Under the pieces are notes generated by a model, which searched no databases, was not told the DNA's origin, and worked only from the letters and a program-made list of their open reading frames with translations. This document shows, piece after piece, positions 12,616 through 24,978 of a stretch of 24,978 nt of DNA. The stretch's first letter is position 1. Every line of letters begins with the position of its first letter. Source of the DNA: a virus; the IMG/VR virus record IMGVR_UViG_3300038461_000309, positions 1 to 24,978 of that record; one strand, written 5' to 3'. Position numbers and translations under genes: made by a program.

Positions 12616-15525
12616 TTATACTGACTGCCTTAAGTTAAGTGTAACTATAATCCAGTTCAACGGAAATACTGGGCTATAGAAAGCTTCGACATCAACAGTT
12701 GAAGGATCATTAGCATCCTGATAAACATGGATACCCTTAAAATCTACAATAACCTTAGTATTCTTAAGAGTAGCAAAATAAGAATTAACTGAACTTGTAA
12801 TCTGAGGAATAACCGTTGGCAAATTCTTTTGACCAATATATTGGTTAAGATTACTTCTAATACCCTGCTGAACAAAATGTTTTACTTCAACAATTCGAGG
12901 ATCTCTTGTAAAAGCATTGCTCAAATCAGAGGTAAGATACATCTTTATTCTAATTGAATTGCCTACCTGATCTAATGTTGTGCATCCAGCATTTGCCACT
13001 AGAGCCGCAGTAACTTCATCCAACCTACGATATAACCTATCAAAACCAACAATAGTTTTGTTAGTAAGCGGTGTAGCTATATCGTACGCCGGTGAAACAT
13101 CTAATCCCGCCATAGCAACTGCTATGAAAGACCCATCCACAAGATATTGTACTTCTGCTCCAAAAGCATCTGTAATACTTATAACAGCAGCTTCTGGATA
13201 AACTGGGGTCACTTTTTCAGTAGCAAGACCTTTACATTTAGCTATAGCAGCATCAGGAGTAGTACCAAAAGGAAAACCAATGATACTTGTTCTTTCATTA
13301 CGGTATGTTATGCTACTCTGAATAGCATTACTTGATTTCAAGTATGCTATTACATCAGCATTCGTTGTCATAGGCTGAATCAACGAAGGTCTTGTTCCGT
13401 TAGGAAGAGGAGTAGCGAAAGCATCTATACCATCGATATAAGACTGTACTGAAGCATCCGGAAGACCGGGTTCTTTTAGGATCTGCTGGATAGCTACTGC
13501 TCTAGCACCATTTAAGAAAGCAAGATTAGCTCCTACTACAATTTTGTTGGTAATATCCAAAGGACCGAAATCCCTATAAACATCACGCATTGCAACATAA
13601 TACTTTGTTGAATAATCAATCTTGTCCTTATCAAATGTGACATAATAATTATCCCCAACAGAGGGCTCATTTCCACTCTTATTAAAAGTATTAAGGATAA
13701 CAGTATCACCCGTACTATCAAAAAGTCCACCAGAAGTTGATGCAACCGTAAGATTAATTCCAGGGACTACTTTTACAATACTAGCGCTTGCTGAGATCCA
13801 AGCTTTGCTTATTGTAGGATTTAAAGGATTTCCAACATCATAAATAACAGTGTTACCTAAAACAGGGGCAAAAGCGATATTAGCAAAGGTTACTCTGAAT
13901 CCGGTAATACTATCTATATAGGTTTGCCCTTGATAACCTGTATTAACAAGCCCCGTACCTGTTTTTCCAGTGGATGTAACTGTAAATCCACCGGTGCCAT
14001 TAAAAGTAACAGTAACCGTTTCAACTACTGCTTTTAACGGATTAACCTCAACAGTTGAGGTTAATCCGTTAAAATTTGATATACCTGAACCTGCATAAAC
14101 TGGGGCTATTGTTCCTCCAGCAGCAAGAGTCACATCTAATGCCGTACCACTATGTTGAGAAGTTACTAAATATTTCCCAACACCAGGTCCGCCTTGAACT
14201 TCGTTAGTAAGAGTCCAAGTATCATCCAAAATATTACTCTCATAATATGTTACAAAAACGAGCTCACCTGCGGTCTGAACTGGGGGTACCTCAAGAGTAA
14301 TAACATTTCCATTTATCTCTGTAACAACAACAGGGCCGCTAGTATAAGCTGTTGGCCAATCCGTACCTACATAAGCTATTATGTTAGAGGGATCCTCAGT
14401 GGCTTCGCCAACACCTGTACCATCAACTGGGTAAGATGATAAGATATAATTTTTGTCCGTATCTGACCCTAGCACAGAAGGGGTAGCTTGTACACCAAAA
14501 ACTCGAGTATCTGTTAAGGATGCTACAACATTACTTACGAAAGGAGTAGACCCTGAAGTATAAATACCTTGAGCGAGCTGATAAGAAGTTCCCCAATGTA
14601 ATTTATTCTCTCCGGCTAGAACACAATCCTGACCTATTGAAAAATCGGATGTATCTGAACTTAAACCTACTTTAATAAGATCAATGACGTGGGCAGCTGG
14701 AAGGATATCATATGTATCTTGCCATAAATTCGTAAAATAAGAAATTGTTACATTAGCTCCACCTACTGGTATTGAATCTAAAATTAAAGTTCCATGAGAT
14801 CCATCAAGATGGTCTATGGTAGCAATGATACTATCTACAGTAACCTGTATAACTGGTACTGTCTTTAAATATTCTTTACCGGGGACTAATGGATTTGGAT
14901 TATAAAGAATTTCAATTGAAGAACCTATGTCAGAATCTGTGGCTGACTGCCCCCTATTATTACCTTTTACAATTCTGGCATTACGTACTTTAAAAATGTT
15001 TGTAAGACCATCAGCCTGAAAAGAGAGATCCTCGTTTTCAATATAGGTATCTCTTCTTTTGAAATAATAATTTGCATAAACAGCGGAAGTCTCTAAAGGT
15101 ATATCCACTAAAGTGACTACACCTGTAAGACCATTAACAGCATTAACGGCTACGGGGACATCATCAACGGTAACTATTACATTTGCTGGGAGAGTTGCTA
15201 CTGTTCCTTTACCGTCACCAACTACTATAGGGAAATTAGCTACTCTAAATGTATTCGTGGTACCCTGTGCGCCACCTATCCAACCTGGACCTGGATCTGT
15301 ATCTAAAACTGCGACACCGGTTACAAGCTCTTCTAAAATAAGATTATCAGCAATAGCTGATGAGCCTCTAATCATACCAAAATTAGAAACTCTTACTTGT
15401 TCGTACCCAACTCCAATAATACCAGGGTATCTAATATCCCCGGCTGCTGACGCTCCTGCTGATTCTGTAAATGTCTGGGCGAACACGCCAGGAAATACAA
15501 AGGTTTCTAAAGGTCCTATAGCCAT
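12616..15525 (-). CDS. Tail sheath protein (large, with inserted beta modules)
   Basis: 969 residues. The N-terminus (FVFPGVFAQTF, then PGIIGVG at 34-40) and the last 200 residues (FDRLYRRLDEV, then RIVEVKHFVQQGIRSNLNQY, YFATLKNTKVIVDFKGIHVY and the terminal strand LNWIIVTLNLRQS) match contractile tail sheath proteins. The conserved C-terminal core polymerises around the tube and drives contraction. At 969 residues it is much longer than T4 gp18 (659). The extra length lies mainly at about 90-560, where at least three related beta modules appear (about 91-160, 175-273, 396-437). They should decorate the outside of the sheath. A perfect 43-nt palindrome lies within the codons for residues 484-498. 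The start has AAAGGAG and an upstream promoter-like motif. Confidence 0.9.
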   Translation of the reverse strand: MAIGPLETFVFPGVFAQTFTESAGASAAGDIRYPGIIGVGYEQVRVSNFGMIRGSSAIADNLILEELVTGVAVLDTDPGPGWIGGAQGTTNTFRVANFPIVVGDGKGTVATLPANVIVTVDDVPVAVNAVNGLTGVVTLVDIPLETSAVYANYYFKRRDTYIENEDLSFQADGLTNIFKVRNARIVKGNNRGQSATDSDIGSSIEILYNPNPLVPGKEYLKTVPVIQVTVDSIIATIDHLDGSHGTLILDSIPVGGANVTISYFTNLWQDTYDILPAAHVIDLIKVGLSSDTSDFSIGQDCVLAGENKLHWGTSYQLAQGIYTSGSTPFVSNVVASLTDTRVFGVQATPSVLGSDTDKNYILSSYPVDGTGVGEATEDPSNIIAYVGTDWPTAYTSGPVVVTEINGNVITLEVPPVQTAGELVFVTYYESNILDDTWTLTNEVQGGPGVGKYLVTSQHSGTALDVTLAAGGTIAPVYAGSGISNFNGLTSTVEVNPLKAVVETVTVTFNGTGGFTVTSTGKTGTGLVNTGYQGQTYIDSITGFRVTFANIAFAPVLGNTVIYDVGNPLNPTISKAWISASASIVKVVPGINLTVASTSGGLFDSTGDTVILNTFNKSGNEPSVGDNYYVTFDKDKIDYSTKYYVAMRDVYRDFGPLDITNKIVVGANLAFLNGARAVAIQQILKEPGLPDASVQSYIDGIDAFATPLPNGTRPSLIQPMTTNADVIAYLKSSNAIQSSITYRNERTSIIGFPFGTTPDAAIAKCKGLATEKVTPVYPEAAVISITDAFGAEVQYLVDGSFIAVAMAGLDVSPAYDIATPLTNKTIVGFDRLYRRLDEVTAALVANAGCTTLDQVGNSIRIKMYLTSDLSNAFTRDPRIVEVKHFVQQGIRSNLNQYIGQKNLPTVIPQITSSVNSYFATLKNTKVIVDFKGIHVYQDANDPSTVDVEAFYSPVFPLNWIIVTLNLRQSV
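14032..14074. repeat. Perfect 21-bp inverted repeat with 1-nt centre inside the sheath gene
   Basis: The arms 14032-14052 and 14054-14074 are exact reverse complements, separated only by the A at 14053. The segment stays in frame in the sheath gene, within the codons for residues 484-498 (NFNGLTSTVEVNPLK). Such a long, nearly centre-less palindrome could extrude as a cruciform or fold as a very stable mRNA hairpin. Confidence 0.95.
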
Positions 15526-15659: not shown

Positions 15660-16133
15660 TTATTTTATTTCCATAACAACTGGCGTTTTGTTTCCATCTT
15701 TACCAGTATCTGTTATTTGCTTCTTATATTCCTGGGTATATTTTTTTCTGAAACTTTGTTCTTTCTTTGTTCCTAAGTGCTCAAATGGATGAACTTTTCC
15801 ATCGGGACCTTTATTATCTATAAGTACTTCTTTTAGCTCTTTACCTTCTTGCCTCTGTTTTCTTCTCTCATCATAGTGCTTCTTCCACTTTTCGTCATAA
15901 CTTTCCCATCTTTTTTCTGCTGCAGCCCCTACAGCTTTATCTATCTCTTTAGGGCTATAAACCGTATCTACCCTTGGGTTAATAGTTGTACTTATTCCAA
16001 AGGATGATACTTTTCTTTCTATAGTATCTTTTGAACAAGAAGGACAAACTCTTTTATTATCCTTATCTTCAAAAGAACTCAACTCTTCGAACTCTCTCCC
16101 ACAATCAACACACCGGTACTCATATAAAGGCAT
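15660..16133 (-). CDS. FmdB-family zinc-ribbon protein
   Basis: 157 residues. It begins MPLYEYRCVDCG with C8/C11 and a second pair at C30/C33 (RVCPSC), the full signature of the FmdB/CxxC-CxxC zinc ribbon. Ordinary bacterial FmdB proteins are about 60-110 residues. Here the ribbon is followed by about 95 residues that are basic and helical (KRWESYDEKWKKHYDERRKQ at about 75-94) with no recognised domain. The family is often labelled a putative regulator, but its biochemical role is poorly defined. In this position, between a neck-like gene and the sheath, it could be a structural or assembly factor, or a small nucleic-acid-binding regulator. AGGAGG gives a near-perfect ribosome site. Confidence 0.8.
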   Translation of the reverse strand: MPLYEYRCVDCGREFEELSSFEDKDNKRVCPSCSKDTIERKVSSFGISTTINPRVDTVYSPKEIDKAVGAAAEKRWESYDEKWKKHYDERRKQRQEGKELKEVLIDNKGPDGKVHPFEHLGTKKEQSFRKKYTQEYKKQITDTGKDGNKTPVVMEIK

Positions 16134-16214: not shown

Positions 16215-17678
16215 TTAGTAGTAACGAACATATCCTACTTCAGGATATTTAACTTCAAAGGGCTTTGAATTAGGGACAACAGACATCTCTAATATTTTTC
16301 CTTGATTATTAACAACATAGTCTACAGTCTTAACAAATGGATACAGCATCATATCATAATCCATTATCTCAGTAAGGTATGGCTCAAATCTCTTCCATTC
16401 GCTTATTAATGTTAAAGAAACTGAATTTCTATAATATTGATCTCCAGTATTCTCATCATACACATCTTCTATTTCACCACCTGGCTCAAGGGACTCCATA
16501 GTAAGACCTTCCATAATGAGCCTTACTCTTTTCCTACTCCACATATCATTTACTATCCAATCAGTAAGATCAGGAAGTTGTACAGGATCTCTACATATAA
16601 CTTCTATATCAAAATTCATCATCCAGTGACCACTATAAACTCGTGCTGCTTGCTCCCTTTTAGGATAAACAATTATAACATTTTTATCGCCTACTATTCT
16701 TTCATTACTGAAACCAAGGATAACTCCAGGAAGAACAGTATTATTGTATATATATTCCTTTTTAGATAATTCAAAAGGACCTAACTCATCCCCGATCCAA
16801 CGATAATTAGCATACAAAGAGGTATCAACTGGTAAAGGGTGTAAAAAAGTTATAGTTCCATAGGTATCGATAGTATAGTCTGTACCTCTAACAAGATTTA
16901 TCCTATATTCGTAATCATTTTTACATCTTAAATATTTATTTTTAAGAGTATATAAGACATCAAAATTAGGAAGTAAACTATGATTTTCAGTCTGTGCGGT
17001 AAGTTCCGTTCCTGTAGTCCTGTTTATTAATTCCTCTTTTGTTACAACATACAACGGATCTATAACAAATTGATCGTCATTGATTATTTCGATATAGTAT
17101 CTACCGGGTGGAGTAAGATTGAGATACTCGTAGGAGATTAAAACTACAGACCCTACTGAGGGTGCTTGTTGGAGTATAATTATACCCTTTGTACCATTTA
17201 CGTATTCAGGAAAAGTAACATTCCCGTTTACAGTTACAGATACCTGAGCAAAATTATGTGCTGTCTTGGAATTAAAAGTACCTGCTACTATCGGTTTATG
17301 CTGTACTGTAAAAACTCTATTTGTCCCAAAGTTAGTATCACCACTTAATTGGGAGGAGACATCCTCATTAAGCTGAAATTTGGTTAGGTTAGTTTGATCT
17401 TCCCAAACCCATTTTAAAATTCTGCCTTCTTTATCTTTTGCACTGGCTAAAGCTACGTGGCTACTAAGCTCTGCAGCATAATCGTCTGGGGACAGTCTTT
17501 GCCTCGTGGACGAGCTGTTACGCAGAACAATTCCCATTTGGGGTCGTTCAGAATATGGAAATTTATGATAAGCTTTTACTCTATCACGAAAATTTGAGTT
17601 TTGTTGCAAACTATCGGTAAGCTCGTCAAAAACCCTTCTTTTAATTGTTCTGAGAAGCCTGCTATCCATGTAGTCCAT
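16215..17678 (-). CDS. Neck / tail-completion-like virion protein
   Basis: 487 residues, probably structural. Residues about 119-192 and 256-301 look like the beta modules found in the sheath: TNRVFTV, then a GxxxLxxxP turn and a VxxxYxY strand followed by PPGRYY; the second copy ends LYANYRWIGDELGPF. The region 353-435 (MMNFDIEVICRDPVQLPDLTD, then IVNDMWSRKRVRL and SVSLTLISEWKRFEPY) resembles tail terminator or completion proteins that cap the tail and join it to the neck. That fits its place just upstream of the sheath gene. An AGGAGAT site supports the ATG at 17678. The name is an inference; a sheath-associated decoration protein is the main alternative. Confidence 0.6.
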   Translation of the reverse strand: MDYMDSRLLRTIKRRVFDELTDSLQQNSNFRDRVKAYHKFPYSERPQMGIVLRNSSSTRQRLSPDDYAAELSSHVALASAKDKEGRILKWVWEDQTNLTKFQLNEDVSSQLSGDTNFGTNRVFTVQHKPIVAGTFNSKTAHNFAQVSVTVNGNVTFPEYVNGTKGIIILQQAPSVGSVVLISYEYLNLTPPGRYYIEIINDDQFVIDPLYVVTKEELINRTTGTELTAQTENHSLLPNFDVLYTLKNKYLRCKNDYEYRINLVRGTDYTIDTYGTITFLHPLPVDTSLYANYRWIGDELGPFELSKKEYIYNNTVLPGVILGFSNERIVGDKNVIIVYPKREQAARVYSGHWMMNFDIEVICRDPVQLPDLTDWIVNDMWSRKRVRLIMEGLTMESLEPGGEIEDVYDENTGDQYYRNSVSLTLISEWKRFEPYLTEIMDYDMMLYPFVKTVDYVVNNQGKILEMSVVPNSKPFEVKYPEVGYVRYY

Positions 17679-17791: not shown

Positions 17792-19561
17792 TTATGCTGC
17801 TAATTTTACTTTAAGAATACTTTCAGACAATATTTCAGGTAGACGTTTAAAATCTTTATAGGATATTCTTAATAAGGGTATATTATTGTCTAAACAATAC
17901 TTATTTTTAATAACATCATTATATTGCGTTCTTTTAAACTGATTAATAGCTTTTTCTTTAGACATACCTTTAAATTGTACTGGTCTATAATGCTGCTCCC
18001 CATCAAACTCTACGAGCAAATTTTTAATAGGGACATAAAAATCAAACTTTAAAAGTTTTTTATTATTAAATCCCCTTAAATTTGAATATGTCTGTTGTTG
18101 TTTATACTCTACATTGTTGGACACTAACCACTTTTTTATAAACTTTTCTCCAGAAGAAATAATCGTGCAATTTTCACACCCATGCCCTGATAAATGATTA
18201 TTTGGCTTTTGGTAGAATTCACCGTGTATTTTACATATAATACATATTTTTACATGATTATTAATATATTTTACTTTTGAATAATCATATTTTCCTTCAC
18301 CATGTATCTTAATAGCTCTTTCTATAAACTTCTGTTTAGTTGAGGTACTTCTTTCCGTTATACTTATTTTTGTACAAGTAGGGCATCCATATCCCTTTAA
18401 GTGATTAATAGGTTTTTGGTAAAAATTTCCATGTAATTTACAAGTAAAACATATTTTAGTAGAACTATCAACATATTTAATATTTGAATAATCATATTTA
18501 TCTTTTCCATGAATTGCTATAGCTCGCTTAATAAACTCTTCGGTAGACAATCTTTTTTTGTCCAAAGCACATTTAGGACAACCACATCCTAATAAATGAT
18601 CGGATGGTCTCTGATAAAAACTTCCATGAATTTTACATATAATATAAATTTTTGTTTTTAAATCTTTATATTCTACTTTTGAATAATCATACATATTTAT
18701 CCCATGTGAAATTTTAGACTTCATAATAAACTCTTCTTTAGTTAATCTAATTATAGAGCTAGCATTTAATTTACTACATGCAGGACATCCTGAGCCTCTT
18801 AAATGCTGACAAGGAGCCTGCAAAAAATCCCCATGAATCTTACAGATAACACATATTTTATCTTTAGTACTAATATATTCAACTTTTGAATAATCATATT
18901 TATAACCATGAATCAATACTGCTTTCGTTATGAATTCATTTTTATCTAAAGTATTTTTAATACTCCTTGACAATTTACCACACACTGGGCAACCCCTACC
19001 TTTTAAATGATTATTAAAATCCTGCAAAAATTCCCCATGGATCTTACAAATAATACATACCTTTGTTTTAATATTAACATAGTTAACTTTAGAATAATCA
19101 TACCTTTCTCCGTGCATGAATATGGATTTTTTTATAAAATTTTCTTTATTTCCATGCATTTGTTTACTTATATTTTGCAACCTACCACATTCAGGACAGC
19201 CATGGCCACACAAATGACTTGAAGGAGTCTGATAAAATCCCCCATGAATTCTACACACAACGTATATTTTTGTAGCAACATTTACATATTGAACTCCTGA
19301 ATAATCATATTTGTTTCCATGAATTTTTACAGCTTTTTTAATAAATTCATATATATTCATTGATTGTTTAATTTTATTACATAAAAAGCACCCACATCCA
19401 CTTAAATGACTATTAGGGCTCTGAAAAAATTCACCATGAATTTTACATATAATCAAAACTTTAGTAATAGCATTAGTGTACCTAACTGTAGAATAATCAT
19501 ATTTATCCCCGTGAACAGACGTGGCTTTTTCTATAAATTCATCCTGTGTAAGTTTTTTCAT
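17792..19561 (-). CDS. Free-standing homing endonuclease-like protein: seven zinc modules plus Vsr-like nuclease
   Basis: 589 residues from the ATG at 19561; a TTG at 19588 would add nine residues, but neither start has a good Shine-Dalgarno. Seven modules of about 54 residues (roughly 8-61, 73-125, 142-194, 210-262, 278-331, 343-396, 412-465) share FIxKAxxxHGxKYDYSxVxY, then CKIHGxFxQxPxxHLxGxGCPxC. Each holds one zinc site (CxxH and CxxC). They match the DUF723-type repeats found with phage endonucleases. The C-terminus carries a PD-(D/E)XK-like site: D507, then VEFDGEQHY with E518, D520 and H524, as in Vsr-like/EDxHD homing enzymes. The modules should read DNA and the nuclease cut it. The gene has its own terminator and a structured leader, so it looks like an inserted selfish gene. 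Confidence 0.83.
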   Translation of the reverse strand: MKKLTQDEFIEKATSVHGDKYDYSTVRYTNAITKVLIICKIHGEFFQSPNSHLSGCGCFLCNKIKQSMNIYEFIKKAVKIHGNKYDYSGVQYVNVATKIYVVCRIHGGFYQTPSSHLCGHGCPECGRLQNISKQMHGNKENFIKKSIFMHGERYDYSKVNYVNIKTKVCIICKIHGEFLQDFNNHLKGRGCPVCGKLSRSIKNTLDKNEFITKAVLIHGYKYDYSKVEYISTKDKICVICKIHGDFLQAPCQHLRGSGCPACSKLNASSIIRLTKEEFIMKSKISHGINMYDYSKVEYKDLKTKIYIICKIHGSFYQRPSDHLLGCGCPKCALDKKRLSTEEFIKRAIAIHGKDKYDYSNIKYVDSSTKICFTCKLHGNFYQKPINHLKGYGCPTCTKISITERSTSTKQKFIERAIKIHGEGKYDYSKVKYINNHVKICIICKIHGEFYQKPNNHLSGHGCENCTIISSGEKFIKKWLVSNNVEYKQQQTYSNLRGFNNKKLLKFDFYVPIKNLLVEFDGEQHYRPVQFKGMSKEKAINQFKRTQYNDVIKNKYCLDNNIPLLRISYKDFKRLPEILSESILKVKLAA

Positions 19562-19583
19562 ACAATCTTTTCTTAAAAATAAA

Positions 19584-19727
19584 GCCAAGACGGTGAGGAA
19601 ACACCTACAAAAATAGTAAGCTTGTGGTATTACTATCTTTGACTCTTGGCTCTAAATCATATTCTTATTATTCCACAAGCTATAGGTTTGATACAGGTAT
19701 TTTCCTTACCCGTATATTATAGGAAAA
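19584..19727 (-). other. Structured non-coding region (candidate regulatory RNA)
   Basis: Several inverted repeats interleave. GCCAAGA/TCTTGGC (19584-19590 with 19644-19650) encloses ATAGTAA/TTACTAT (19613-19619 with 19630-19636) and GGTG/CACC (19592-19605). The loop of the middle hairpin contains one arm of GCTTGTGG/CCACAAGC (19620-19627 with 19673-19680), giving a pseudoknot. Further upstream, ATACGGGTA/TACCTGTAT (19691-19699 with 19707-19715) has a seven-base loop AGGAAAA complementary to 19721-19727. One pair there is G-U on the minus strand but A-C on the plus strand, so the minus-strand RNA is the better folder. It lies between the actin-like stop and the endonuclease start. It may be a leader, an intron remnant or a stabilising element. 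Confidence 0.5.
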
Positions 19728-19763
19728 TTTATGAATAGAATACTATAATAAGTAAAATTATAC

Positions 19764-20777
19764 CTAATCATTCATTGCTGCAATTAATAATCCTTTTGCG
19801 ACCCCATTAAGAGGGTCTGCGGCCATACGAATCTCAGACACGCTAATAGGAAAATTGTCTTTAATTTTATTGAACTCTTGTTGAAAAAGTGGAAGAAAAT
19901 TCTTAGCTAAACTGGTCCCACCTGAAATAATCCAAGGTATTTTATCTGGTAATTCTATAGTACTTTGATCTTTTTTAAACTCCTTTTTAATACTGTCTAT
20001 AGCATTTCTTATCAAATTTTTATAATAAACTGTAATTGCTTCTCTCTCACGTATTTGTTTAGGATCCCCTTCTTCTGGATTTAAAAGATTTACCCCACGT
20101 TCTTTTACCATCATTATCTTCGTTGCGGTACTACCAGTAGCCTTGGCTGCTGAAAAATCAATCCAATCGCCTGAATTCATGGTTGAAAAAGACATACCAA
20201 TAAGCGTTCTGTACAGCAAGGATGTATTAACTAAACCTGCTCCGAAAGAACTTGCCAAAGCAGTAAATCCACTCTCCTCACAGTTGGAATAAACTATAGC
20301 AGCTGCCTCATTCATAGACACAGCCCTATAGCTACCACAATTTTCTATCACTTTTTTAAAAATAGCCTCATGATAAACTATATCAACGTTATTGTCCAGG
20401 GCTTTAGCCGGTACACTATAATAGACTATTTCGTTTTCTACTTGTGGCTCTTTCAAAATACTTTTAATTAAAATAGAGAGTACCTTTTCAGCATCCAACT
20501 CTCCAGGAGATATGATACCTTTGCTCAAAGGTCTACGAGCCTCTCTTTTAAACATGTTTGCTAAAGATAACGCACTTTCCCCTATAACATATACACTGTC
20601 CTTTTCTTGTATATAGGAAACATTAGACATTTTAAGCATATTTAAAACAGTAGGGTCTGCTTCAATATCCAAAAATGCATCTCTCACAGAATTAATCTGC
20701 ACTTCTGACTGAGGGTTCTTTGGATCTTTAGATGCACATGCAAGCCAGCATGTCCCGATATCCAATCCTTTAGCCAT
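19764..20777 (-). CDS. Actin/Hsp70-fold ATPase (ParM/MreB-like)
   Basis: 337 residues with the actin-superfamily motif order: phosphate-1 GLDIGT at 4-9 (D6), a connect-1-like NEAAAIVYSN at 156-165, a phosphate-2 segment SSFGAGLVNTSL at 176-187, NSGDWIDFSA at 201-210 where MreB and DnaK have GG-DFD, the adenosine motif IISGGTSL at 283-290, and connect-2 near 321-334. The usual Asp opening phosphate-2 is Ser here, which may weaken ATP hydrolysis. Phage actin-like proteins usually form filaments that segregate or position DNA. This one lies in a structural operon next to a protein with a DnaJ-like zinc site, so a chaperone-like role is also possible. AAAGGAG and a promoter-like motif precede the ATG; the stop is TAG. 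Confidence 0.78.
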   Translation of the reverse strand: MAKGLDIGTCWLACASKDPKNPQSEVQINSVRDAFLDIEADPTVLNMLKMSNVSYIQEKDSVYVIGESALSLANMFKREARRPLSKGIISPGELDAEKVLSILIKSILKEPQVENEIVYYSVPAKALDNNVDIVYHEAIFKKVIENCGSYRAVSMNEAAAIVYSNCEESGFTALASSFGAGLVNTSLLYRTLIGMSFSTMNSGDWIDFSAAKATGSTATKIMMVKERGVNLLNPEEGDPKQIREREAITVYYKNLIRNAIDSIKKEFKKDQSTIELPDKIPWIISGGTSLAKNFLPLFQQEFNKIKDNFPISVSEIRMAADPLNGVAKGLLIAAMND

Positions 20778-20800
20778 TTGTAAACTCCTTTTTAAAGTTT

Positions 20801-20820
20801 ATTTTATATGGATTTAAAAA
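20801..20820 (-). promoter_or_regulatory. AT-rich promoter-like motif before the actin-like gene
   Basis: TTTTTAAATCCATATAAAAT overlaps the stop codon of the 304-aa gene and lies 23 nt before the actin-like ATG. It would allow extra expression of the ATPase within the operon. Confidence 0.55.
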
Positions 20821-21728
20821 TTTACAATTTTTTGATCATCAAAAATTAATGTCCTAGTCCTTTTTTCTGGTACTTCTGTTTTTTGAGTACTCCTTAATTT
20901 ACTAACATATTCTTCTGCATTTACCTGGATACTCCCAGTACCTTTGCATGTAGGGCATTTAATCTTAAAAAATAATATTTTAATTAATTTATTACTTTTG
21001 CATGTCGGGCAGATTACCGGTATGGTATACTTATACCCTTCCTTAAAGATTCTAAAATCTTTATAAAATTTATCATCTACTTTTTGAGATTCCTTTTGAA
21101 AAGCCTTTTCTTCCGTCATATCTTTATCTTCTTCGACACCAAATTTTTCCTTAATAGCCCATATCTTAGAAAGGCCTTTTTGATTGGCTAATCCTGTAGC
21201 TATTCCAGTTATCTGATTAGCTATTTTATCTTTTATAGCATTATCAGTATTTTCAACAATTTTAAGTTTTCTAACTGAACTATCTATAACATTTTCAAAA
21301 ATTATAGATGAAGAAACCAACTTTTCATTATCATATCCCTCTTCAAGTATTTTTTCAAGTGTTTCCTGATTGTCCTCTAAAGATTTAAGATAATCTTTGT
21401 CTAACTCGCCATCTTCACCATAACCGTACGGATTCTTATTCATTTCATTCAAATCTTTCTCTAACACCGATATTTCATCATCATCAAAAAGATATGAAGC
21501 TTTTTCTTTGTCCAAAAACTTTTTATCTTGCGACTGATCAGCAGTTTTATTAAGACTTGGATCATTACTTTGCTCTGCTATTGCTTCCCTTATACTTTTT
21601 CTTGGCTCACCTTCTACATTTTTCATTTTATAGCTAATAGCTCCTTCTTTTTCTGAGTCCTGATCCAAATCCTTACGCTGTTCCTCAAACTTAGCCTTGT
21701 CCTTAGACTTGTCCTGATTCTGTTCCAT
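20814..21728 (-). CDS. Acidic protein with a DnaJ-like CxxC...CxxCxGxG zinc site
   Basis: 304 residues, not recognised as a whole. The N-terminal 130 residues are highly charged and probably disordered; residues about 135-235 are helical. A zinc site follows: C240/C243 (ICPTCKS) and C258/C261 in CPTCKGTGS, the latter an exact CxxCxGxG unit as in the DnaJ zinc-binding domain. DnaJ has four such units making two zinc sites; here there is only one site and no J-domain HPD. Its stop lies 36 nt before the actin/Hsp70-like start, so the two are probably co-expressed. I infer a partner or substrate adaptor for that ATPase. A structural protein with a simple zinc knuckle is the alternative. Confidence 0.7.
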   Translation of the reverse strand: MEQNQDKSKDKAKFEEQRKDLDQDSEKEGAISYKMKNVEGEPRKSIREAIAEQSNDPSLNKTADQSQDKKFLDKEKASYLFDDDEISVLEKDLNEMNKNPYGYGEDGELDKDYLKSLEDNQETLEKILEEGYDNEKLVSSSIIFENVIDSSVRKLKIVENTDNAIKDKIANQITGIATGLANQKGLSKIWAIKEKFGVEEDKDMTEEKAFQKESQKVDDKFYKDFRIFKEGYKYTIPVICPTCKSNKLIKILFFKIKCPTCKGTGSIQVNAEEYVSKLRSTQKTEVPEKRTRTLIFDDQKIVNF

Positions 21729-21741
21729 GTTATACTCCTTT

Positions 21742-22416
21742 TTAAGTAGATTTTTTTATCTTTTTAAGTGCCGCTGCCGCACTGTTTATATCGTCACTTC
21801 TCTCTATCGTACGTACCTTAAGATTTATATGAGAATTACCATCCTCAACTTTAATATTCGGGACATATACTTCTTCAGGTGCTTCAGCATCAACTTTTTT
21901 ATCAGGAGACATCTTAGAAGATATCCCTGACAACTTTAATAAAACTTCCTCTAACTTTTGAAATGCTGGATTATTAGTAGTCTGATTAACTTTTTCTTCC
22001 AATTTATGGATAGTATCTAAAAGAGCACTATTATCTGACGGAACTGGACCTTGTAATTTCTTCTCCAAAGCGTCTATCTTCTGTACTAAAAGGTCTATTG
22101 TTATATTGTTACTATTAGAAGTATTAGATTGCTCTATTTTAGATTCAAGATTCTTTAATAAATCAAAAAGAGGATTTAAATCAGAGGAGTTCTTATCTAT
22201 TGTATTATCTTTTAAACCTTCGGGTACTTCAAAATTTGAAAATTTTTCATTTACCCTTTTAAGTACAATGACGCTACCTTTACTTATAGCTATCTTTAAG
22301 CTATTAGATTTTTTATACTCCTCTTCTGAAAAAGTCTTTACCTGTTTGTAATATATAAAATCTTGGAGTTCCGGCAGAGGGACTGTTTCAGGATTCTCTC
22401 CCCTGACTGTAATCAT
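21742..22416 (-). CDS. Coiled-coil phage protein of unknown function
   Basis: 224 residues. The N-terminus (residues about 10-55: VPLPELQDFIYYKQVKTFSE, then KSNSLKIAISKGSVIVLKR) is a compact segment that looks like a small domain. Residues 80-175 form likely coiled coil broken by Asn/Ser/Pro-rich linkers. The C-terminus is short and mixed, ending in a basic KKIKK tail. No enzymatic motif or membrane segment is seen. It has only a weak Shine-Dalgarno (TTGAGAT) but a promoter-like motif 17 nt upstream, and it ends 13 nt before the 304-aa gene. It is probably virion-associated or part of head-neck assembly, by neighbourhood only. Confidence 0.7.
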   Translation of the reverse strand: MITVRGENPETVPLPELQDFIYYKQVKTFSEEEYKKSNSLKIAISKGSVIVLKRVNEKFSNFEVPEGLKDNTIDKNSSDLNPLFDLLKNLESKIEQSNTSNSNNITIDLLVQKIDALEKKLQGPVPSDNSALLDTIHKLEEKVNQTTNNPAFQKLEEVLLKLSGISSKMSPDKKVDAEAPEEVYVPNIKVEDGNSHINLKVRTIERSDDINSAAAALKKIKKST

Positions 22417-22433
22417 GTGTTATCTCAATTTCA

Positions 22434-22453
22434 TTTTATATGTATTTAAGGGA
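22434..22453 (-). promoter_or_regulatory. AT-rich promoter-like motif before the 224-aa gene
   Basis: TCCCTTAAATACATATAAAA. Its upstream half overlaps the 3' arm of a perfect 10-bp hairpin, so termination and initiation signals are stacked. Confidence 0.55.
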
Positions 22454-22474
22454 AAGCATTTAACGCTTTCCCTT
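22448..22474 (-). terminator. Perfect 10-bp hairpin after the 266-aa gene
   Basis: AAGGGAAAGC and GCTTTCCCTT flank a 7-nt loop in the short gap after the 266-aa gene. Only two T residues end the stem, so it is a weak intrinsic terminator at best. It overlaps the next promoter-like motif. Confidence 0.6.
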
Positions 22475-22488
22475 ATTAAAAGCATAAC

Positions 22489-23289
22489 TTAAACAGTATA
22501 ACGAGCACGAGAGTTCTCATACCTCTCGGTTGCTTGCTTAGACTTGAATTTAGGAATATCCTTCTTTTCAAGATCTATGGGCTCTTTTTTCTTCTTCGGC
22601 TTTTCCTCTTTTTTAGTTTCTGGTTCTGCTGGTTCCGTATCCATCTTTTCTGAATTATCACCTTTTACCGCAGAAGGATCTGGCTCAGTTTTAGGAGAAG
22701 GTTCTGATAACGGGTCTTCATCTTTTGGAGTTTCACTTTTCTCTTTATTAGGATCACCCAATAGATCAGTTTCCTGCTCTTTTACTTTCTTTTCTTTTCT
22801 AGCTTTTTGAATCGTATCAACATTATCAACTTTTTCCTGCTTGGCTTTTGCATTCTGTGTCTCAACATCTTCAAAAAGCTTATCAATTTCAGAATCTAAA
22901 TCATCATCTTTTTTATCTTTAGCAGCAGGCTCTTCGGCTGGTTTCTCAGCGGGCTCCCCCTTATCCTCTTTAACGGTATCTTCTAACATAGGGTCTTCAG
23001 CTGATTCTTTTTCTTCAGTATAGAATTTTTCACTAGTATCTGTAGACACATATGCCATCTTACCTTCGCATCCAGGAACAGGACATGCTACAGCATCATT
23101 GATAGTAACTGCCTTAACTGTAAGCTCAGGATCTTCTTGAGCAGCACACTTAACACGTCTATCATTAATCTCAGCTAAAGAAGCCGTATGATTACAGTGA
23201 GAACAAATAAAAAAAGTATTATCAGAGGCTTCTTTTTCTATTTGTTCAGCTAATTTCAAAAGTTTTTCAGCATGCTTCTGAAGATCCAT
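22489..23289 (-). CDS. Acidic zinc-binding protein of unknown function
   Basis: 266 residues. It starts with an amphipathic helix (LQKHAEKLLKLAEQIEKEA at 3-21), then a small cysteine domain: C29/C32 in FICSHCNH, C48, and C69/C74 in CPVPGCEG, which can hold one zinc ion. From residue 90 onward the protein is almost entirely Glu, Asp, Lys, Pro and Ser and probably disordered, ending in a short basic-aromatic tail (RYENSRARYTV). The composition recalls prohead core or scaffold proteins and the 388-aa protein in this window. An AAAGGAG site fits the start. A promoter-like motif lies 37 nt upstream and a perfect 10-bp hairpin lies downstream. Confidence 0.72.
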   Translation of the reverse strand: MDLQKHAEKLLKLAEQIEKEASDNTFFICSHCNHTASLAEINDRRVKCAAQEDPELTVKAVTINDAVACPVPGCEGKMAYVSTDTSEKFYTEEKESAEDPMLEDTVKEDKGEPAEKPAEEPAAKDKKDDDLDSEIDKLFEDVETQNAKAKQEKVDNVDTIQKARKEKKVKEQETDLLGDPNKEKSETPKDEDPLSEPSPKTEPDPSAVKGDNSEKMDTEPAEPETKKEEKPKKKKEPIDLEKKDIPKFKSKQATERYENSRARYTV

Positions 23290-23326
23290 GTTAACGCTCC
23301 TTTATTATCTGATTAAACAGAACATC

Positions 23327-23346
23327 TTTTATATGATAAAAATATT
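23327..23346 (-). promoter_or_regulatory. AT-rich promoter-like motif before the 266-aa gene
   Basis: AATATTTTTATCATATAAAA lies 37 nt upstream of the start codon, between the small membrane protein gene and the 266-aa gene. Confidence 0.5.
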
Positions 23347-23355
23347 AACAGTTTA

Positions 23356-23559
23356 TTACCTTTTATTTTTAGGCTCTTGATACTGTATCTCATAGATGCC
23401 TATATCATACGGTATGATCTTATATTTTATGTTCTTTTTTTGTAGATCATCAGTAACATTGCCCAATTCTTTCTTACTATCCACATAAACACTTGTGTGT
23501 GATCCTCCAATAGTCGCACAGAAAATAAATAAAACTACGAATATCAATAATAATCGCAT
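23356..23559 (-). CDS. Small exported or membrane protein
   Basis: 67 residues. Residues 1-19 (MRLLLIFVVLFIFCATIGG) form a signal peptide or single membrane anchor. The remaining 48 residues are polar, with a likely alpha/beta pattern. The first ten residues resemble those of the gene just upstream, so the pair may act together in the envelope. I considered a spanin-like role, but there is no long coiled coil to support it. The start has AGGTTG upstream, 30 nt after the previous stop. Confidence 0.6.
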   Translation of the reverse strand: MRLLLIFVVLFIFCATIGGSHTSVYVDSKKELGNVTDDLQKKNIKYKIIPYDIGIYEIQYQEPKNKR

Positions 23560-23589
23560 AATTCAACCTAAAACAACTTTTAATAAAAA

Positions 23590-23781
23590 TTATTTCTTGG
23601 CTGGTTCTTTTGCAGTTTCCTTTGTAATGGCTTTTGTCGTATCTTTAACCATGGCTTTTGTCGTATCTTTAGCTACTGCAACTACCGCAGGCTTTGTCGT
23701 TAAAGGAGCTACTTTCTTAACCTTATTACAGCAACTAAGCATAACCCCACAAGCAACAACAAAAATTATAAGAGTTCTCAT
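23590..23781 (-). CDS. Small lipoprotein-like protein with KDTTKA repeats
   Basis: 63 residues. The N-terminus (MRTLIIFVVACGVMLSCC) is a short signal sequence ending in a lipobox-like LSC, with C17 the likely lipidated cysteine. After a basic stretch the rest is Lys/Thr/Ala-rich, with three degenerate eight-residue repeats (KDTTKAMV, KDTTKAIT, KETAKEPA) encoded by a 24-bp repeated DNA segment. The strong GGAGGTG ribosome site marks it as a true gene despite its size. It could be a phage lipoprotein such as an outer-membrane spanin subunit or a superinfection-exclusion lipoprotein. Neither is proven. The lipobox is imperfect, with Met or Leu at -3 depending on which cysteine is used. Confidence 0.65.
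   Translation of the reverse strand: MRTLIIFVVACGVMLSCCNKVKKVAPLTTKPAVVAVAKDTTKAMVKDTTKAITKETAKEPAKK
23627..23671 (-). repeat. 24-bp direct repeat in the lipoprotein-like gene
   Basis: A 21-bp segment (23627-23647) recurs exactly at 23651-23671 with a 24-bp period, so the reading frame is kept. It encodes the KDTTKA repeats. Copy number could change by slippage without breaking the gene. Confidence 0.9.
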
Positions 23782-23811
23782 AACACCTCCATTAAATTAA
23801 GGTTTAAACTT

Positions 23812-24852
23812 CTAAACGTTATACAATAAATAATCTCTCCAAACTTTTTTTGCTTTTCTATTGTACCAATCTAAATAAATATTATTTAACTTATAAACAT
23901 CAAAATCCTTCGTATCGATAATAAATCTAATCTTTTCTAAGATATCTTCTGATGAATTTGGGTCAGCTTGAAACATCTCAGGCAACCACGTAATATCCTT
24001 TGATCCGATAAGGGGGACTCCGTTAAAAATAAAATCAGCAGCTACAATATTAAATGTCTCACTCAAACTAACTTGAAGACCAACATCCATTTGGACTACA
24101 ACTTTTACAAAATCTTTATGACTCAGCCATGAATGATCTATAAGTTTGTGTTTTGTCCCTGCAAAAAGAGCTTTGAGATTCTTATAGACATTATCACCAG
24201 ATTGCTCCTGCCTATCGGAATTTACGTGAAAATGGATCACCTTCTCCAGTTCTTCGCCGTATTCAATGGCTGCTATCGCTTGTGTAAGAATATTTTTAAA
24301 AGGCCTAATCGCCCCAAAGCACCCTATGTCTATATAATCTTTAACAACCGGAACCTTTACAGGAATATCTTCTTTTGGTAGATATATATTAGGCAGATAT
24401 AGACTTTTAATGAAAAATATTTTTTCTAAATCCTCTGTAAATTCAAAACTATTAACAGAAACAAACAAATTTTTAAAATCCTTCATTAATTTAACATATC
24501 CTGTAATCCAAGTAAAAGCTATACCTTCAGATGATATAAAACTTATTTTACTATGGAGTCTTATTATCCAAGTAATTTTCTTGTACCTCTTTATAGACAG
24601 AAGCTCTTGGATCTTTTTAGGCGTTACCCATAGGGCTTCTAAAATTACATGCGTTGGGTTATAATCAAAAACTTCTTTATCTATCCCATTGGCATCCTTA
24701 ACTACAGATAACTTGCTTTCTATATCTATTTCTTCTAAATAATTAATAACAAATCTTGAGGAGTTCATTAACCCTACGGAATTCCCATACCCATAGGAAT
24801 AAAAATTTGTACGCTCCTTGCAGATAAACAAAACTTTTGGTAAGACACCCAT
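23812..24852 (-). CDS. GT-B glycosyltransferase (GT4-like)
   Basis: 346 residues. The C-terminal half has the usual nucleotide-sugar side of a GT-B enzyme: GCFGAIRPFKN at 178-188, a variable middle, then LSETFNIVAAD near 263-273 with the acidic residue of the E-x7-E-like region, and GVPLIGSKDITWLPEMF. The N-terminal half is an acceptor-type Rossmann fold without a signal peptide, so it acts in the cytoplasm. The substrate cannot be read from the sequence. In phages such enzymes modify DNA, virion proteins or host surface sugars. It is the first complete gene at the right of the window, with a weak ribosome site (GAGTGA); the stop is TAG. Confidence 0.75.
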   Translation of the reverse strand: MGVLPKVLFICKERTNFYSYGYGNSVGLMNSSRFVINYLEEIDIESKLSVVKDANGIDKEVFDYNPTHVILEALWVTPKKIQELLSIKRYKKITWIIRLHSKISFISSEGIAFTWITGYVKLMKDFKNLFVSVNSFEFTEDLEKIFFIKSLYLPNIYLPKEDIPVKVPVVKDYIDIGCFGAIRPFKNILTQAIAAIEYGEELEKVIHFHVNSDRQEQSGDNVYKNLKALFAGTKHKLIDHSWLSHKDFVKVVVQMDVGLQVSLSETFNIVAADFIFNGVPLIGSKDITWLPEMFQADPNSSEDILEKIRFIIDTKDFDVYKLNNIYLDWYNRKAKKVWRDYLLYNV

Positions 24853-24886
24853 TTATTCACTCATTTCCCCTGATGTTGTGATTTAA

Positions 24887-24978
24887 TCATATTATATTCT
24901 GACCAACAGATTTGATTACATTTTCTACAACACTAAACAAACCATTAATACCTATTAAAGAAAATAACAAAACCATAA
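24887..24978 (-). CDS. C-terminal end of a possible small hydrophobic protein (runs off right edge)
   Basis: The minus strand is open from the right edge to a TGA at 24887. The 29 codons after an ATG at 24976 read as a hydrophobic segment (VLLFSLIGINGLFSVVENVI), and the frame is also open to the edge. It may be the tail of a gene whose start lies outside the window. The TGA stop differs from the TAA/TAG used by the other genes. Evidence is thin. Confidence 0.35.
   Translation of the reverse strand, partial: MVLLFSLIGINGLFSVVENVIKSVGQNII

Follow-up and report, generated by a model that had tools for sequence, protein, structure and literature searches.

A volactin-family actin-like ATPase and its conserved coiled-coil partner in the neck/tail gene block of large phages

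Phage-encoded actins and tubulins are already known as a kind, and to our knowledge the few phage cytoskeletons described (PhuZ, TubZ and AlpC) are all tied to DNA positioning. The PhuZ spindle of nucleus-forming jumbo phages resembles the system considered here in being a cytoskeleton of large phages, but PhuZ is a tubulin, and a search of 16 large volactin-bearing records gave no tubulin match. In the Corynebacterium prophage CGP3, the actin-like ATPase AlpC is encoded beside its adaptor AlpA, an early-expressed protein that binds the DNA of the phage (PMC4446434). The name volactin comes from Haloferax volcanii HVO_2015 (VolA), an actin homologue that assembles into filaments and is required for disks to form on time; the filaments are dynamic in cells and their tips bind membrane, and the surrounding region, hvo_2013-hvo_2020, is suspected in shape determination (PMC10869688).

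We analysed a stretch of viral DNA of 24,978 nucleotides (the window), in which volactin, its partner, the two zinc-site genes, P487, the zinc-ribbon gene and the tail sheath gene lie on the minus strand. Its actin-like ATPase resembles VolA in matching the Pfam Volactin model (PF25216) over the full length and in carrying the phosphate-2 serine of close haloarchaeal VolA homologues. The settings differ: VolA is cellular and membrane-tethered with a role in cell shape (PMC10869688), whereas the phage volactin is encoded among tail genes and has a soluble partner. Our literature search returned no description of a phage volactin, and co-mentions of the two words concern Haloferax motility and shape. 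What is new is volactin in a phage tail block together with a putative adaptor bearing a C-terminal tail motif.

The volactin ATPase

The open reading frame at 19764-20777 encodes 337 residues, and profile matching places the product in the volactin family over its entire length: PF25216 is covered from position 1 to 321 of 321 with 201.6 bits (cut-off 35; E 2.9e-59) and is the only Pfam family found. This frame and the one at 20814-21728 are both present as given in the preliminary description. A PHROG search with the ATPase gave no annotation. The volactin of one relative (L012) shows 38% identity over its full length to two haloarchaeal plasmid volactins, which themselves score 447-466 bits with the PF25216 model.

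Motif conservation was examined in an alignment of 90 volactin relatives of phage, bacterial and archaeal origin. In the phosphate-1 motif GLDIGT (residues 4-9, 20751-20768), D6, G8 and T9 are invariant, and in the adenosine motif GGT (residues 286-288, 19914-19922) the GG is invariant and followed by T or S in 90/90; both motifs had been read from the single sequence and proved invariant or nearly so. Glu157 (20307-20309), also invariant (90/90), presumably occupies the catalytic Glu/Gln position of actin-like proteins, an assignment made by position. The phosphate-2 Asp, which in actin binds Mg, had been reported as Ser. We confirmed this substitution at S177, in the loop SFGAG (residues 177-181, 20235-20249): S177, G179 and G181 are invariant in all 90 sequences, haloarchaeal members included. 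The absence of the actin-type Asp from all volactins examined counts against the filament system proposed below. Since the Ser is invariant across phage, bacterial and archaeal volactins, it represents a signature of the family and not decay.

The phosphate-2 loop also hosts inteins of 363-371 residues, placed after the invariant Ser with Cys as the next residue, in L017:9995-12094, L018:8369-10480 and L029:5369-7507. A 700-residue volactin frame, L161:5857-7959, has its insert at a different point, after SLAR.

Structure prediction and profile searches, which the preliminary description had proposed as checks, together with fold searches placed the protein among actin-like filaments. The AlphaFold2 model (pLDDT 91.3, pTM 0.89) has a predicted fold of the actin/MreB/MamK type and not of the Hsp70 type. 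With this model, the top Foldseek matches were MamK (2.8e-14), MreB and BeeR, and Hsp70 came far below them (BiP at rank 47); TM scores against the filament structures of MamK and BeeR were 0.72-0.73. At the sequence level, a PDB search with the single protein gave no match, and a profile of volactin relatives retrieved MamK as best match (E 2.9e-6). MamK, MreB and BeeR, the closest solved structures by fold, nevertheless differ from phage volactin in their phosphate-2 signature and share about 15-17% identity with it.

A scan of viral contigs found volactin relatives in at least 554 viral stretches, many in records above 200 kb (the largest 529 kb). Among 50,697 phage records, matches were confined to two huge uncultured phages of 485 and 595 kb. 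The family occurs in 16/16 large records searched, as a single volactin in 14, as two copies in one and split by an intein in one. On one viral contig of 297104 bases, two different volactin/partner pairs lie about 160 kb apart (L050 and L063). In an unrooted tree, the volactins found in tail-gene context form one group (100/99 support) next to the cellular volactins of bacteria, while haloarchaeal volactins fall outside; the closest relative of the window by volactin is L016 (75% identity). A second phage type falls outside the tail-gene group: L020:12001-13020, from the 595-kb phage LR756511, and L029:5369-7507, from a contig similar to that phage and binned as Neisseriaceae, neither with a tail-bearing neighbour. 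The LR756511 volactin has neither the partner nor the tail-module context described below, which counts against our best explanation.

In Planctomycetota, the family scored above cut-off in 135/392 genomes sampled, and a literature search on Planctomycetota volactins found nothing. In Omnitrophota, tandem volactin paralogues of 347-349 and 465 residues (L023:9986-12550 and L026:9986-12531) lie next to genes for a ParA-like, a coiled-coil and a tail-bearing protein.

The conserved partner and its gene block

Judging from sequence comparison, the conserved partner of volactin is the coiled-coil gene at 21742-22416, whose product of 224 residues (CC224) comprises an N-terminal domain, a coil and a putative docking tail. 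Profile search found the CC224 family in 81/93 loci of the volactin set, usually in the gene before volactin and often 8-16 bp away from it, and CC224 comes ahead of volactin in almost every viral relative; counting against the system proposed below, many huge phages have at least one gene between the two. To avoid circularity, we also fetched loci by the downstream gene P487 alone, for which a broad alignment was too divergent for scanning and two narrower ones worked. All 67 such loci with at least 4 kb upstream carry volactin and CC224 in the same order; some of them overlap with loci of the first set or are similar to one another, so that 67 does not count independent lineages. In most loci, no protein of the gene block is better conserved than volactin.

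P487 itself (16215-17678) is a conserved structural gene kept beside volactin; its product is a probable neck/tail protein, with a weak DUF2460 match in 3/15 members. It is followed by an FmdB-type zinc-ribbon protein (15660-16133; PF09723, 54 bits) and then by the tail sheath protein (12616-15525; PF17482, phrog_2839). The block also contains a 1195-residue protein in tape-measure position and a lytic tail protein, so that the phage structural context proposed earlier holds. Upstream of the partner lies a zinc-site-bearing protein conserved in the clade of the window (22489-23289). In L019:9439-10827, a 462-residue structural protein upstream of the partner contains CTICYGVGYVGG; a site like CxxCxGxG thus occurs in a further protein of the neck region.

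Between volactin and P487, the window carries at 17792-19588 a 598-residue protein in which HGxKYDYS treble-clef units (DUF4379) recur and whose C-terminus is nuclease-like. Its relatives at the same spot in L004, L005, L010, L015 and L016 suggest an insertion hotspot for a mobile nuclease.

The predicted structure of CC224 has a confident N-terminal domain (residues 1-55, pLDDT about 95), uncertain coil helices and a C-terminal helix (209-223). The N-terminal domain weakly resembles the prophage protein YqbF (Foldseek probability 0.96, E 0.11), whose gene lies in the head-to-tail part of the skin element of B. subtilis. Searches of CC224 against Pfam, PHROGs and a PDB profile gave no reliable match, and no DNA-binding family was among the results.

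A C-terminal tail motif shared with cellular volactin neighbours

The putative docking tail of CC224 spans residues 183-224 (21745-21870, VYVPNIKVEDGNSHINLKVRTIERSDDINSAAAALKKIKKST). We built a profile from the C-terminal 50 residues of 79 CC224 proteins of phages and searched it against the open reading frames of volactin loci that lie outside this phage group. There, the top-scoring genes adjoin volactin, in Omnitrophota, haloarchaea and Planctomycetota. A further 56 cellular loci, picked by volactin rank and spread only, brought the total to about 64-65. At 5 bits or more, the phage-only profile found a gene in 21 cellular loci, adjacent to volactin in 21/21 and with the motif at or near the C-terminus; these neighbours come from Planctomycetota, Omnitrophota, a Desulfobacterales MAG and haloarchaea. 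Counted per open reading frame, matches occurred in 22/250 adjacent versus 2/3367 other frames (Fisher p 3e-24, a value that overstates independence since many cellular loci are related). One of the two matches elsewhere (L307) is the gene called next to volactin in the locus-level search, and one adjacent match (L349) looks spurious. Shuffled tails reached the threshold in 2/1050 cases. Counting against the system proposed below, the motif is short, its individual matches score low (5-19 bits with the phage-only profile), and 42/64 cellular loci are without a tail-bearing neighbour at threshold, some of them distant members.

The reverse profile, made from bacterial neighbours and containing a few spurious rows, ranked the phage partner first among about 91 open reading frames in 69/79 viral loci. 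A combined profile recovered more adjacent genes in non-seed loci, including Planctomycetota missed earlier. The consensus reads roughly E-S/N-N-I/L ... G-V/I-x3-L-x2-L-R/K-x-L/M-R/K.

Outside the tail, the Planctomycetota neighbours have a common N-terminal domain of their own and a coiled coil. Profile comparison did not relate the N-terminal domain of the phage partner to that of its bacterial counterparts, as expected for adaptors with different cargo. The tail-bearing haloarchaeal neighbour consists of a multi-TM domain (DUF7139, hydrophobic segments) followed by the tail, which fits the membrane binding of volactin filament tips (PMC10869688).

Proposed system and competing explanations

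We consider it somewhat probable that volactin and an adaptor with a docking tail form a two-component actin-like filament system, encoded at this locus within the neck/tail module of phages that are large and often jumbo. By its family and fold, volactin (19764-20777) would bind ATP and polymerise into dynamic filaments. The partner (21742-22416) would dock on it by the short C-terminal tail, and its variable N-terminal part, domain or coil, would link the filament to cargo. In haloarchaea the cargo would be membrane, as the tail-bearing neighbour there has the multi-TM domain DUF7139. In phages it would most likely be a nascent virion part, capsid or tail, positioned or moved in late infection, because the gene pair is fixed in the neck/tail morphogenesis block. 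The phage pair probably acts in late virion assembly or positioning. The preliminary description had suggested a filament system with an adaptor; the filament half is upheld by the volactin family and the actin fold, but the adaptor would be the product of the coiled-coil gene and not the zinc-site protein discussed below.

The main rival, which we regard as unlikely, is a DNA-positioning system like ParMRC or AlpAC, in which volactin filaments would transport or tether the DNA of the phage and the partner would serve as a DNA-binding adaptor. Known phage actins (AlpC/AlpA) work in this way (PMC4446434), and there too a phage-encoded actin-like gene adjoins that of its adaptor, as at this locus. 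However, AlpA binds DNA while CC224 matched no DNA-binding family in the Pfam and PHROG searches, and no iteron or centromere-like repeat was found within 19400-24978. Moreover, the volactin pair is located among neck/tail genes, in contrast to alpAC, which forms an early operon on the border of its prophage (PMC4446434).

It is quite improbable that volactin is instead a virion component, or a non-polymerising, scaffold- or chaperone-like assembly ATPase in neck/tail building. Its invariable place between the partner/neck genes and the P487/sheath genes would suit such a role, and the change of the phosphate-2 Asp to Ser could slow hydrolysis. Yet haloarchaeal volactins have the same Ser, and the characterised relative polymerises dynamically in cells (PMC10869688). 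The closest folds are likewise filament-forming actins.

The 304-residue zinc-site protein (20814-21728) lies between partner and volactin, 36 bp from the ATPase frame. It has a single CPTC...CPTCKGTG site, and its match to the DnaJ zinc domain PF00684 is below threshold (14.5 bits, cut-off 32.7). Among the loci searched, homologues occur in the near-identical record of the window (L002/L021/L107) and in L030/L110 alone. In the L030 copy CxxC...CxxC is retained, whereas CKHTGK stands in place of CxGxG, so that of the proposed DnaJ zinc unit the site itself stands and the 'DnaJ-like' label does not. Comparison of these loci marks it as a zinc-ribbon protein specific to a lineage, whose gene is an insertion between two conserved ones, and not as a conserved part of the system. 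That volactin and this protein form a functional unit is highly improbable: they adjoin each other in the window and in L030, but the zinc-site protein is absent from L016, with its 75% identical volactin, and from all other loci searched, and its L030 form and DnaJ score argue the same way. The pairing noticed at first is rejected by this distribution, confined to two related phage lineages; its proponents had named relatives carrying the ATPase without the zinc-site protein as evidence of an accidental pairing, and the co-occurrence survey found exactly such relatives.

The suggestion of a stripped-down Hsp70/DnaJ chaperone is rejected as well. The ATPase shares the fold superfamily of DnaK and BiP, and its neighbour holds one zinc-site unit; the ATPase, however, matches no DnaK family, its 337 residues include no substrate-binding domain, Hsp70 ranks low by fold, and the zinc-site protein has no J-domain.

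That an actin-like filament protein is fixed in the tail-building block of widespread uncultured large phages points to a role in virion assembly. More broadly, archaea, bacteria and phages may have in common a cytoskeletal system of volactin plus an adaptor with one docking tail, an idea we hold to be evenly balanced. In this system the N-terminal part would set the cargo (membrane for haloarchaea, coiled-coil proteins for Planctomycetota and Omnitrophota, and parts of the virion for large phages), and large phages would build or place their tails and capsids on filaments of their own. The common tail names concrete partner candidates in archaea (the DUF7139 neighbour), Planctomycetota and phages, which can be tested in cultured organisms.
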